34,987 nucleotides of DNA. Source: Herpetosiphonaceae bacterium (GTDB lineage Bacteria > Chloroflexota > Chloroflexia > Chloroflexales > Herpetosiphonaceae). The notes beneath the pieces are model-generated. The model was not told the DNA's origin and did no database searches. It saw nothing but the letters and a program-made list of their open reading frames with translations. Within the stretch, counting starts at the first letter, position 1. Each line of letters begins with the position of its first letter. The position numbers were made by a program, and so were the translations under genes. Location of the stretch: the NCBI GenBank assembly GCA_013538855.1, contig JABXJS010000048.1, forward strand, positions 1 to 34,987, read 5' to 3'. Shown here in pieces: positions 3,239 through 26,315 of the stretch.

Positions 3239-3751
3239 CTACGGGGATAAGTGCCGCCACGATGTGGCTGACCGCTTGTGCTCGTACAGCTCCTGCTGTG
3301 TTGGTGTGGACTGCGGCCGCGGGAGGTTGACCAACCCCACCAGCTCGTCGATCAGCATCTGCGCCTCGTGCGCGGCGATCAGCGCCTGGCGCAGGCTTTT
3401 TTGTTGATCCAGCCCGTTGCTGCTAAACGCATCGCTGATGCGTGCGTTGATGTCCTGAACCGTTGCATCAAGATCTTTGACTGCTGAAACTGTTTGATTC
3501 ATCACTGCTGGCGAGACATTGATCACTGGCGCATCTGGTGCTGGCGGCGCTGCTGGCTTGCGGCGCTGGTACTGATCGACCAGCCACCATGTAGTTGCGC
3601 CGACGACGCCAATAACGCACCAATCGACGGCGTAGGTGCCCCATAGACCGCCTGCTTCAAGCAACGTGTGATCAACAATATCCCATACAATGTACCCGCC
3701 AAAGGCTCCTATCAACAACGGCCATGAGCGCCGTTGTAGCCGTTTCATCAT
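3239..3751 (-). CDS. Small membrane protein of unknown function
   Basis: 170 residues, not recognised. Visible features are a basic N-terminus (MMKRLQRR), two hydrophobic segments at about residues 9-30 and 38-60 separated by an acidic turn, then QYQRRKP, a Pro/Ala linker, and a soluble helical region from about 80 to 140 (PAVMNQTVSAVKDLD, NARISDAF) that could form a coiled coil. The sequence suggests a membrane anchor with a cytoplasmic helical tail. AGGTGA lies 6-11 bases before the start codon; a second ATG directly follows the first. Upstream are a candidate promoter and three 11-bp-spaced direct repeats, so expression may depend on a response regulator. Confidence 0.7.
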   Translation of the reverse strand: MMKRLQRRSWPLLIGAFGGYIVWDIVDHTLLEAGGLWGTYAVDWCVIGVVGATTWWLVDQYQRRKPAAPPAPDAPVINVSPAVMNQTVSAVKDLDATVQDINARISDAFSSNGLDQQKSLRQALIAAHEAQMLIDELVGLVNLPRPQSTPTQQELYEHKRSATSWRHLSP

Positions 3752-3811: not shown

Positions 3812-3838
3812 GATGAAAATTAGATGAAAACGTGATGA
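3812..3838 (-). promoter_or_regulatory. Three direct repeats at 11-bp spacing, candidate OmpR/PhoB-type box
   Basis: GATGA occurs at 3812, 3823 and 3834 on the plus strand (TCATC read in the direction of the gene); the first two share the longer AGATGAAAA. The 11-bp period places all copies on one face of the helix, directly upstream of the -35. OmpR/PhoB-family activators bind such arrays; which regulator acts here is unknown. Confidence 0.5.
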
Positions 3839-22586: not shown

Positions 22587-24062
22587 ATGCGGCACGTTGG
22601 GCGGAATGTTGGAGCACATATCTGGCGCTGGATTCCATCGCTAGCTGTGCTGCTGCTGCTAGCAGCGCTGATCTTACCGCATGATCGCGCCGATCAGCTG
22701 CGGCAGGCTCAGCTGAATCGGCAGCAGGGCCACTGGCGTGCTGCGCTAGGCGCGTATGTCGATCTCTATGCTGCGACACCTGCTGATCCGCTGGTGCTGC
22801 TGCCGCTTGCTGATGCCTACTTGGTACGTGGTGAATGGAGCACAGCAGAGACTGTGCTGCGCGAGCTGCTTAATCTGCGGCTTACGCCAGCGGAGCGTGA
22901 CGCAGGCTGGCTGCGGCTAGGCTGGTCGCGGCTGCAACAAGGTGCTCCACATGATGCCCAGACCTTCTGGAAAGCGGTTTCACCAGCTGAGGCTGGTCCA
23001 CTCGCTTTGCTACAGAGCGAGCAGGCGCTGTTGCAGGGCAAGCTTATCAGCGCCACAACCTACCTCAATCAGGCGGTTGATCTGCCGCCTGCGCTGCGCT
23101 CGTGGCGTGATTTTCGCGCGGCACAGCTAGCACTTCCGCAAGCTCCCACAACGACACTCGCGCTACTAGATCAATGGCAGCCATTAACGTCAGCCCATCC
23201 GCTTGTGCCTATGGATTTAGCAGCGCTGCACATGGAGGTAGCCGCTTTGCGCAGTGCCGCAGCGTGGGATTACGATGCGCGGCTGTTGGCGCTGGCCCGT
23301 CAGTGGGCTAGTGAAGGCTTACCGCAAGCCGCGCTAACGCTGCTGGATCAAGTTCCACCCTCAAGTGAGCTAGCTAGCCGCGCCGCCGATGAGGCCGCAC
23401 GGCTCGAATGGATTAATGGTGATTCAGCTGCGGCGCTGCTACGGCTACAGCATGCTATTGAGCAGTTTCCGAATGTTCCGGCGCTGCGGCGAACTCAAGC
23501 TGTGATTGCTGTTAGCGCCGATCAGCTTGATCTGGCTCAGAGCGCCTTGTCGGCAGCAGTGCTCGCTGAAGGCTGGAGCGCTGACAATCTGATTGCCGGA
23601 GCGAACGTTGCTGCGGCCCAGCAAGATTTTAACGCTGCGGCCGCGGCCTATGCGACGGCGATCGAGCTGGCTGAAGATCCTGGCGAGTATCAGGTTCAAG
23701 CAGCAAACTTCTATATTTCTGTGCCGCTGCGTGTCTGCTCTGAGGCGCGTGACTATGCCAACCAAGCGCTTGGCAGTGCGGTTGATCGCACAGCGCGGCT
23801 GCTAGCAGGCCAGCTTGCCGTGCGCTGTAATGATCCTACGGCGGCGCTCAGCGTCACAGCTCCATTGGCGGACGATGCTCTAGCTGATCCTGCGGTTGGC
23901 TATGTTCGCGGAGCAGCGCTGTGGCAGCTTGGCGAGCATGAGCAGGGCTACCGTCTGTTGGCTGCGGTGTGTGATCTTGCCCCGCGTAGTTTATGGCGGC
24001 AGCAGGCCGAGCAGATTATCGGTCTGCCATCAAGCCGGTTGCAGCCAGAAGATCTGCAGTGA
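22587..24062 (+). CDS. Membrane-anchored TPR-repeat protein
   Basis: 491 residues from the ATG at 22587, eight bases after the hydrolase stop. A single hydrophobic segment near the N-terminus (about 16-34: SLAVLLLLAALIL) anchors it. The rest is made of helical repeats with TPR spacing, e.g. ADAYLVRGEWSTAETVLRELLNL, AALLRLQHAIEQFPNVPALR and NFNAAAAAYATAIELAEDPGEYQ-like units; about eight to ten repeats are likely. TPR arrays bind partner proteins; the partner is unknown. No strong Shine-Dalgarno, so translation is probably coupled to the hydrolase. Its 3' end overlaps the convergent lipoprotein gene by 33 bp. Confidence 0.82.
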   Translation: MRHVGRNVGAHIWRWIPSLAVLLLLAALILPHDRADQLRQAQLNRQQGHWRAALGAYVDLYAATPADPLVLLPLADAYLVRGEWSTAETVLRELLNLRLTPAERDAGWLRLGWSRLQQGAPHDAQTFWKAVSPAEAGPLALLQSEQALLQGKLISATTYLNQAVDLPPALRSWRDFRAAQLALPQAPTTTLALLDQWQPLTSAHPLVPMDLAALHMEVAALRSAAAWDYDARLLALARQWASEGLPQAALTLLDQVPPSSELASRAADEAARLEWINGDSAAALLRLQHAIEQFPNVPALRRTQAVIAVSADQLDLAQSALSAAVLAEGWSADNLIAGANVAAAQQDFNAAAAAYATAIELAEDPGEYQVQAANFYISVPLRVCSEARDYANQALGSAVDRTARLLAGQLAVRCNDPTAALSVTAPLADDALADPAVGYVRGAALWQLGEHEQGYRLLAAVCDLAPRSLWRQQAEQIIGLPSSRLQPEDLQ

Positions 24063-24713
24063 TTTATTGCGCCATAGACCAACAGCAACGACAGAGCCAT
24101 AGCGCACATTATTGCTTTGACCAGGCAACCGTGAGATTAACTCGCGGTCGCTGAACGGCTGGGCAACTTTGATCTGCGCTGCATCGGCGGTTGGCACCCC
24201 GCCAGAGCCGACGGCCTCAACCAACAATGCTTCTTGCTCGTTCACAATAATTGTGCCATTTACCTGCACCACCTGCTCCTGATACACGCTGGAGTTATTG
24301 ACGAGATCGCGGAGCAGCACAGCGGTTGGGCTAAGAACCTTTACTTCGCTGGCTTGAAATGTGCGCTGATTGTTGGCCTCCTCGACTATTCCCACTGCAC
24401 GTACAATCCCGTACTCTGCTGCCCCTTGCTGCATGAGATCAGCACTGGGCACACCATTTATGCGCACCGTTAGGGCTGGATTCACCGCTTTGGGGGTGCC
24501 AAGCACGTTTAAGCCCGAGGCAAGCTGCGCTGAGCCTTGCTGCACAATAATCGGTGCAGTTATGACTACTGGCTGGCTGGTTATTGGGCCAACTGCCAGA
24601 TCGTTAATCGTCGCGTTAGGAACGGTTGACTGTGTAGGTTGCGTTGATTGAGGCGCTGTGCTGCAAGCAGTCAGTAGCAGTGCGAGCAGCATATACTTCC
24701 AAATACGTCGCAT
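24030..24713 (-). CDS. Putative lipoprotein, possible OB-like fold
   Basis: 227 residues, not assigned to a family. The signal peptide MRRIWKYMLLALLLTAC ends in lipobox LTAC, followed by a Thr/Gln/Ser linker. The mature part is beta-rich with repeated valine and glycine strands (VRAVGIVEEANNQRTFQASEV; VYQEQVVQVNGTIIVNEQEALLVEA split by NNSS), which is compatible with OB-like or similar small beta domains, but this is only a guess. GAGGAT precedes the ATG. The promoter (TGGTATCAT) lies about 35 bp upstream with an inverted repeat over its -35 zone. The 3' end overlaps the TPR gene by 33 bp. Confidence 0.75.
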   Translation of the reverse strand: MRRIWKYMLLALLLTACSTAPQSTQPTQSTVPNATINDLAVGPITSQPVVITAPIIVQQGSAQLASGLNVLGTPKAVNPALTVRINGVPSADLMQQGAAEYGIVRAVGIVEEANNQRTFQASEVKVLSPTAVLLRDLVNNSSVYQEQVVQVNGTIIVNEQEALLVEAVGSGGVPTADAAQIKVAQPFSDRELISRLPGQSNNVRYGSVVAVGLWRNKSLQIFWLQPA

Positions 24714-24746: not shown

Positions 24747-24755
24747 ATGATACCA
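24747..24755 (-). promoter_or_regulatory. Extended -10 promoter of the convergent lipoprotein gene
   Basis: Minus-strand TGGTATCAT. No good -35; the inverted repeat at 24773-24787 covers that position. Confidence 0.5.
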
Positions 24756-24859: not shown

Positions 24860-24895
24860 GATAGGCTCTCGATAGGTCGATGATAGGTTTTGACA
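24860..24895 (+). promoter_or_regulatory. Three GATAGG repeats at 11-bp spacing next to a consensus -35
   Basis: GATAGG starts at 24860, 24871 and 24882, and two bases after the last copy is a perfect TTGACA (24890-24895). At 16-18 bp spacing no good -10 exists (best TAAGCA). Repeats in helical phase directly before a -35 and a poor -10 are the usual arrangement for a promoter needing an OmpR/PhoB-like or SARP-like activator. Confidence 0.5.
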
Positions 24896-24922
24896 GTGCT
24901 TTTAACCGCTCTCTAAGCACTG
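24894..24922 (+). promoter_or_regulatory. Inverted repeat over the mvaA promoter spacer
   Basis: Perfect 8-bp arms CAGTGCTT (24894-24901) and AAGCACTG (24915-24922) with 13 bases between. It could be an operator or, if transcribed from the distal promoter, an RNA hairpin. Confidence 0.45.
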
Positions 24923-24926
24923 TGCG

Positions 24927-24935
24927 TGCTACACT
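24927..24935 (+). promoter_or_regulatory. Proximal extended -10 of mvaA
   Basis: TGCTACACT, matching the extended -10 form seen at other promoters here. The leader would be about 70 bases. Confidence 0.45.
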
Positions 24936-25013
24936 GAGTCTATCGCGTGTAAACGTGACACTAATGAACTGTACTTGGCTATGATATTTTTGCATGGTGG
25001 TGGAGGTTCACAC

Positions 25014-26315
25014 ATGAAGGAGAAAAATAGTCGGCTAGGGGGGTTTTACCAGCTCTCACCTGCTGATCGGTTGAACGCTGTCGGAGCTTTTGATGGTCTC
25101 AATCGCGATGATCTGCATGCCCTACGTGGCGAAAGCAGTCTGTCGCTTGATCGTGCCGACAAGATGATAGAAAACGTTGTTGGCACATTTAGCCTGCCGC
25201 TAGGCATTGCCACCAATTTTCGTATCAATGGCAAAGATAAGCTTGTGCCAATGGCCGTTGAGGAGCCGTCGATTGTTGCTGGTGCCTCATATGCGGCCAA
25301 ACTTGCACGGGCTGGCGGTGGCTTTTTCACCAGCAGCACGCCATCGCTGATGATCGGACAGGTGCAGCTGGTTGGTATCGACTCGATGGAAGGCGCAAAG
25401 CACGATATTTTAGCGCGCCGTGACGAGCTGCTTGCGCTCGCCAATCGCCAGAGCACAGCGCTGGTTGCGCTCGGCGGCGGGGCCAAAGATATCGAGGTGC
25501 ACACCTTCCCGAGCAGCCCGATGGGACCGATGCTGGTGGTTCATCTCATCATCGACTGTCTTGATGCGATGGGCGCTAACGCGATCAACACCATGGCCGA
25601 GGCGATTGCCCCCCGGCTGGAGGCGATCACCGGCGGGCGGGCCTATCTACGGATTCTGTCGAATCTGACAGATCGCCGCTTGGCCCGTGCGAAGGTGATC
25701 ATTCCTGCGCGGGCCTTAGATCGCGATAGCATGCGCGGCGAAGAGGTGATCGAAGGTATCTTGTGGGCCTACTCGTTTGCAGCAGTCGATCCGTACCGGG
25801 CCACGACACACAATAAAGGCATCTTGAACGGCATCGATCCTGTCCTGATCGCCACCGGCCAAGACTGGCGAGCAGTGGAGGCAGGCGCGCATGCGTATGC
25901 TGCCCGCGACGGTCGCTACACATCGCTGACTATGTGGGAGCGGGATAACGATGGCAACTTGATTGGCACCATCGAGATGCCGCTGGCTGTTGGAATAATC
26001 GGCGGGGCGGTCAAAGTGCACCCGACGGCACAAGCGGCGCTGAAGCTGCTAGACGTTCACTCGGCGCGCGAGCTGGCCGAGGTCTGCGTGTGTGCTGGCC
26101 TAGCTTCAAATTTGGCCGCACTGCGCGCACTGGCCTGCGAGGGCATTCAGCGCGGTCATATGAGCCTGCATGCCCGGCAGATCGCCATGAGCGCTGGCGC
26201 ACCGCCAGAGCTTGTTGAGACTGTTGCCGAGCGTCTGATTGAAGAGCGCTGTATCAAGCCCGCGCGCGCCGAGGAGATGGTGCGCGAGATGCTGGTGAAT
26301 ATGTATACCTCGTAG
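25014..26315 (+). CDS. mvaA: Class II hydroxymethylglutaryl-CoA reductase
   Basis: 433 residues. It converts between HMG-CoA and mevalonate, the committed step of the mevalonate isoprenoid route. Catalytic residues appear at nearly the positions of the Pseudomonas mevalonii class II enzyme: E83 in VEEPSIVA, K268 in THNKGI, D284 in GQDW and H386 in LHARQIA; DAMGAN (184-189) forms part of the cofactor site. The ATG at 25014 has GGAGG 6-10 bases upstream; an in-frame ATG at 24975 lies before this site and encodes Gly/His-rich residues foreign to the family. A biosynthetic role is likely because a lycopene cyclase is nearby and Chloroflexus relatives use mevalonate. The upstream control region is the most elaborate in the window. 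A terminator follows. Confidence 0.96.
   Translation: MKEKNSRLGGFYQLSPADRLNAVGAFDGLNRDDLHALRGESSLSLDRADKMIENVVGTFSLPLGIATNFRINGKDKLVPMAVEEPSIVAGASYAAKLARAGGGFFTSSTPSLMIGQVQLVGIDSMEGAKHDILARRDELLALANRQSTALVALGGGAKDIEVHTFPSSPMGPMLVVHLIIDCLDAMGANAINTMAEAIAPRLEAITGGRAYLRILSNLTDRRLARAKVIIPARALDRDSMRGEEVIEGILWAYSFAAVDPYRATTHNKGILNGIDPVLIATGQDWRAVEAGAHAYAARDGRYTSLTMWERDNDGNLIGTIEMPLAVGIIGGAVKVHPTAQAALKLLDVHSARELAEVCVCAGLASNLAALRALACEGIQRGHMSLHARQIAMSAGAPPELVETVAERLIEERCIKPARAEEMVREMLVNMYTS

Follow-up and report, generated by a model that had tools for sequence, protein, structure and literature searches.

Head-to-tail half-sites about 11 bp apart make up the pho box, whose last half-site starts 16-17 bp before the -10 element and replaces the -35. 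In the SARP (AfsR) box of Streptomyces, direct repeats are 11 or 22 bp apart and the 3' one lies 8 bp from the -10; AfsR itself occupies a pair of 11-bp direct repeats, from -40 to -19, overlapping a poor -35 (PMC10936776). The operators of CarH are likewise tandem 11-bp repeats, of the form N4-T-N2-RCR-G, one of which holds TTGACA (PMC9304148). On the control of committed steps in bacteria that use the mevalonate pathway, we found little in the open-licence literature. Here, we describe a phased array of GAYAG half-sites upstream of mvaA, which encodes HMG-CoA reductase, in a DNA stretch of 34,987 nucleotides (the window), and we follow it across an order that we guess to be the Chloroflexales, with relatives of Herpetosiphon, Roseiflexus and Chloroflexus. 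Judged from sequence comparison, the array is very probably an unrecognised binding site for a regulator that sets carbon entry into isoprenoid synthesis, and it would represent a new cis-element with a small regulon of a known general kind. A search of the open-licence literature found no earlier description of the array, which is weak evidence of novelty.

The repeat array and its surroundings

Three copies of GATAGG start at positions 24860, 24871 and 24882 of the window, with the 11-bp period that the first-pass annotation had reported, and TTGACA begins two bases past the third copy (Table 1). A fourth member, GACAG (24892-24896), follows 10 bases after the third repeat, giving the series GATAG-11-GATAG-11-GATAG-10-GACAG. 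The GATAGG triple is the sole exact equal-spaced hexamer triple (7-25 bp) outside coding sequence in the whole window, and 20 dinucleotide shuffles of the window contain none. In a scan of the 6.3-Mb genome, the exact triple occurs once, and no second site appears with up to three mismatches; since a reversed control pattern gave 6 matches at three mismatches, only the exact match is informative in that scan. The exact triple is peculiar to this genome, and the form conserved in relatives is GAYAG at steps of 11, 11 and 10 bp. We therefore take the conserved element to be the phased GAYAG array, of which the GATAGG triple is the local version.

Table 1. Features around the mvaA promoter, in window coordinates
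Feature	Position	Strand	Remark
Divergent putative lipoprotein gene	24030..24713	-	from the ORF list; common intergenic region with mvaA
Repeat 1, GATAGG	24860..24865	+	relatives hold GACAG, GAAAG or GAGAG here, at offset -22/-21 from the core start
Repeat 2, GATAGG	24871..24876	+	GANAG at offset -11 in 23/36 distinct promoters
Conserved core GATAGGTTTTGACAG (repeats 3 and 4)	24882..24896	+	includes TTGACA, 24890-24895
Inverted repeat ACAGTGCTT / AAGCACTGT, 13-nt gap	24893..24923	.	this genome only
Extended -10 of the mvaA promoter, TGC-TACACT	24927..24935	+	TAnnnT position conserved in relatives
mvaA, HMG-CoA reductase	25014..26315	+	PF00368, E 1.6e-110

The start of mvaA is likely the ATG at 25014, and the TTG at 24975 given in the ORF list too early, because homology begins at residue 11-14 in relatives and a GGAGG lies at 25002-25006. 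The divergent gene matched no Pfam family, and a lipoprotein-like ORF in the same arrangement is also present at two other loci (L156 and L157). On the minus strand at 24747-24755, TGG-TATCAT resembles an extended -10 for the divergent gene, and in relatives TACCAT or TACCAC occurs on the plus strand at a similar location; the array may thus lie within a bidirectional promoter. In three genomes, the neighborhood of mvaA holds no consistent regulator gene.

The window's genome (G000) encodes a second HMG-CoA reductase, 79% identical, in a block with genes for a pentapeptide-repeat protein and a cytochrome P450 (locus L034, G000:C211). Its upstream region is without the array, the closest stretch differing at 5 of 15 positions, and this gene is perhaps a regulation-free copy serving specialised terpenoids. 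Despite the two reductases, neither an archaeal-type nor a bacterial-type HMG-CoA synthase was found in this genome, which would reflect either an assembly gap or a third enzyme type.

Conservation and promoter geometry

HMG-CoA reductase was found in 39 of the 41 genomes of the order, and the array core lies upstream of it at all 38 loci with readable upstream DNA, the window included. One genome, only 75% complete (G001), gave no reductase or synthase match and no array, at fabZ either. The core reads GAKAGNTTTTGRNRG, with GAKAGNTWTTGRNRG in the most divergent genus; across aligned relatives GAKAG is invariant, TTTTG nearly so, and GRCAG follows. Among the 36 distinct promoters, between-family identity is 89% over the 15-mer core GAKAGNTTTTGRSAG, as against 25-26% in the flanks and 33% in the spacer to the -10, both near chance, a contrast that argues for selection rather than recent ancestry. 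GANAG half-sites recur in these promoters at offsets -22/-21, -11, 0 and +10 from the core start, with none at further offsets above the listing threshold; a degenerate GRNRG at +31, which is 16 bp before the -10, occurs in only 11 of the 36. The last step of 10 bp is invariant in the mvaA arrays of the order, and some relatives, G017 among them, reproduce the window's 11-11-10 spacing without change. Thus the spacing of the repeats, whose conservation in relatives the first-pass annotation had named as the check on its proposal, is kept across the order, and the proposed phased-repeat site at the promoter of HMG-CoA reductase, the enzyme of the committed step in isoprenoid synthesis, gains support from it. 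With a sequence profile of the array (R1), we searched 120 genomes of the class and matched 52 of 53 in this order and none of the 67 from other orders. In one genome the array occurs a second time, about 1 kb ahead of the mvaA copy and beyond a 198-aa gene (L194 3618-3641, G097:C68).

That the repeats arose by chance beside an ordinary sigma-70 promoter is a barely credible reading of these data. The window's genome is indeed alone in having the exact GATAGG triple and the inverted repeat, but four families keep both the core and its distance to the -10, and the 41 genomes hold 54 exact core matches against 1 for the reversed pattern; this conservation rules out a chance origin of the core. 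Chance still stands as the explanation of the inverted repeat. The latter does exist next to TTGACA, with arms of 9 bp (24893-24901 and 24915-24923), the first of which opens with the final three bases of the hexamer, where 8-bp arms starting on the last two had been described. It had been offered as a second regulatory input, and we dropped it as a conserved second operator on finding it missing from all 35 other distinct promoters.

The TTGACA hexamer had been taken for a consensus -35 lacking a good -10. No -10 hexamer indeed lies 16-18 bp downstream of it in the window, but a conserved extended -10 does exist further on (Table 1), 34 bp from TTGACA in the window and 33 bp in most relatives. 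At this distance TTGACA cannot serve as its -35, and we assign the hexamer to the fourth repeat of the array. The distance from the core start to the TAnnnT -10 is 47 bp in 30 promoters and 48 bp in 6, the window among the latter, and TG precedes the hexamer in 30 of the 36. This distance is fixed in all 36 promoters while the spacer sequence drifts, as expected if a bound protein touches RNA polymerase. None of the array promoters has a correctly placed -35 element.

Further targets and the sign of regulation

The array also precedes the gene for HMG-CoA synthase, mvaS, in four of the five genera in which mvaS is no longer part of the mvaA operon, a tally that includes an unrelated bacterial-type synthase. 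The R1 profile finds it at separate mvaS genes in G009, G012, G015, G018 and six Herpetosiphon genomes, and the arrays in mvaS's own promoter include genera g5, g8 and g10 besides those six genomes. Where mvaS directly follows mvaA in an operon, it has no array of its own; an exception to the rule for separate genes is G003, with an archaeal-type mvaS that has no profile match. In G024, an array with steps of 11, 10 and 21 bp, followed 15 bp on by TACACT, stands before a gene that we assign to the bacterial type of HMG-CoA synthase from its own sequence and a weak match to the archaeal-type enzyme. An array before a replaced synthase of another type shows that the control logic outlives the enzyme. 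In Herpetosiphon and G015, the last mvaS half-site starts 16 bp before the -10, with 11 bp between the end of the pentamer and the -10, and the repeats at about -38 and -28 make the array cover about -38 to -24; in G012 the -10 is not at this distance.

A further array lies in the leader of fabZ in eight Herpetosiphonaceae genomes, with steps of 10 or 11-10 bp, 27-28 bp downstream of a conserved TACACT. The sites of five Herpetosiphon genomes are weak alone (10 bits) and align with the stronger site of G006. The fabZ operon belongs to fatty-acid elongation and has an OmpR-type response regulator downstream. At these loci (L276, L277 and L278-L283), fabZ and the response regulator are accompanied by a divergent gene for a polyprenyl-diphosphate synthase. 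Weak profile matches (E > 0.05) were discarded as extra targets, being mostly inside genes, that is, due to chance.

We propose that, throughout the order, a dedicated factor binds the array and activates entry into the mevalonate pathway. This is the best explanation of the pattern and, as a whole, a probable one; that a dedicated array-binding regulator exists is highly likely. Direct repeats spaced by one helical turn suggest that several protomers line up head to tail along a single face of the DNA, each on a GAYAG half-site roughly a turn from the next (11, 11 and 10 bp). Relative to the inferred start, the strong half-sites of mvaA would occupy about -81 to -44, and a degenerate one would follow some 16 bp ahead of the -10. 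For most separate mvaS genes the array would be two turns nearer to the -10, so that its last half-site begins 16 bp ahead of it; the additional 21 bp at mvaA and in G024 would amount to two helical turns. With an extended -10 and no correctly placed -35 at mvaA, contact of the bound factor with RNA polymerase most likely takes the place of the -35, in the manner of PhoB and SARP proteins. The fixed -10 distance, the lack of a usable -35 and the 16-bp position of the last mvaS half-site make activation the likelier sign, and we expect, with somewhat less assurance than for its existence, that the factor is mainly an activator. Of the earlier suggestion of activation by a phased-repeat binder, the phased-repeat site is thus borne out, and activation is plausible from the rigid distance between array and -10.

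The array could instead be a repressor operator, where a sufficient supply of isoprenoid or acyl precursors would let the factor block polymerase at mvaA, mvaS and fabZ. The downstream position of the fabZ array in all eight genomes, the overlap of the mvaS array with the core promoter and the ability of extended -10 promoters to fire without a -35 speak for this reading. Nevertheless, the mvaA core occupies about -59 to -44, on the upstream side of the core promoter, and its rigid distance to the -10 is not needed by a repressor; we regard repression at all three genes as rather unlikely. For fabZ itself, an array downstream of the likely -10 suggests repression rather than activation, and one dual regulator would account for both effects. 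Such a factor would act as a branch switch at acetyl-CoA that activates mvaA and mvaS and represses the fabZ operon in Herpetosiphonaceae, an idea that we put forward tentatively and with considerable doubt. If true, bacteria would have a parallel, in logic alone, to the sterol-type coordination of the isoprenoid and fatty-acid pathways.

Candidate binding proteins

The activating factor that we favor stands about an even chance of having a DNA-binding domain of the OmpR/PhoB/SARP type, and an OmpR/PhoB-type winged-helix protein is the likeliest class, as suggested by the layout of its sites. Like OmpR/PhoB sites, the array has head-to-tail half-sites at steps of about 10-11 bp (in the window and G017, and in part at G024 mvaS), the last of which starts, at mvaS, 16 bp upstream of the -10 in place of a -35. 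Unlike the pho box, it has a GAYAG half-site on the sense strand and an invariant 10-bp last step, places at least four half-sites further upstream in the case of mvaA, and is directed to isoprenoid genes. Proteins with a Trans_reg_C domain are encoded in all six genomes searched, with 12-27 OmpR-type regulators per genome, so numerous that their presence in every genome proves nothing. Four of these regulators are core orthologues, and two of the four follow fabZ: core-1 in G000 and G003, core-2 in Herpetosiphon. A fabZ-linked regulator as the factor is only suggestive, since the two orthologues differ and at most one of them can be the factor. The first candidates would be these two regulators, orthologues of L092 2692-3396 and of L161 2472-3239, and the BTAD proteins discussed below. 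Among 25 loci, none of the OmpR-type regulators has an array in its own promoter, except via fabZ. With a defined DNA bait, a small target set and a checked distribution, the regulator can be fished out directly, and the array bears on carotenoid and quinone supply in phototrophic relatives and on the engineering of mevalonate flux.

Another phased repeat in the window, GATGA at 3812, 3823 and 3834 with an 11-bp period, lies upstream of a minus-strand gene (3239-3751) and reads TTTTCATC on the minus strand (3812-3838). The first-pass annotation had seen the architecture of the mvaA promoter here as well; the likeness holds for the repeat only, and the site is another phased direct-repeat site, probably for a different OmpR-type regulator.

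A SARP activator with a BTAD domain, rather than a response regulator, might bind the array. SARP targets are 11-bp direct repeats near the -10 (PMC10936776), and BTAD proteins are encoded in all 41 genomes of the order. In the array as in the AfsR box, direct repeats follow each other at one or two helical turns, immediately ahead of a -10 whose -35 is poor; the two differ in half-site and in position, the main mvaA repeats lying at about -81 to -44. The spacing of the array is 10-11 or 21 bp against 11 or 22 bp in the SARP box, and at mvaS the pentamer ends 11 bp from the -10 against 8 bp for the 3' repeat of the SARP box, a comparison in which the half-site edge is undefined. The BTAD proteins are mostly large and multi-domain, number only 1-5 per genome in the reduced genus g6 and show no link to the targets, making a SARP an improbable binder.

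CarH/LitR, a B12-dependent photoreceptor that controls isoprenoid pigments through tandem 11-bp repeats, is attractive in repeat length and pathway and, in our judgment, slightly less probable still. Repeat 4 of the array reads TTGRCRG, which recalls the TTGACA-holding repeat of CarH operators (PMC9304148). A CarH-size B12-binding frame occurs in nearly every array-bearing genome, and proteins combining MerR and B12-binding domains, encoded in G000, G007, G010, G013, G028 and others, are found among 18 loci examined, often beside a phytoene-synthase-like gene. However, the frame in G003 is not MerR-CarH, and the R1 profile finds no array in the 18 carH-type loci. The likely operators upstream of carH in the same genomes instead read TGTGCA-TTGACA-TGTGCA, with strict 11-bp steps, T-N2-RCR half-sites and TTGACA as a true -35, whereas the mvaA array has GAKAG in place of TnnRCR, an invariant 10-bp step and a TTGACA that is no -35. 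Nor does the mvaA array hold at least three N4-T-N2-RCR repeats in strict 11-bp steps, and its main repeats lie upstream of the -35 and -10 positions that a CarH-type site overlaps, with TTGACA 34 bp from the -10. Half-site and step thus disfavor CarH as the binder.

The putative CarH operators adjoin a phytoene-synthase-like gene across the order, with examples at L310 (5085-5328), L311, L308 (4340-4470), L322 (3900-4050) and L321. At L310 the TTGACA of the putative operator is 17 bp from TACAAT, and we predict that carH is under autoregulation by B12 and light.
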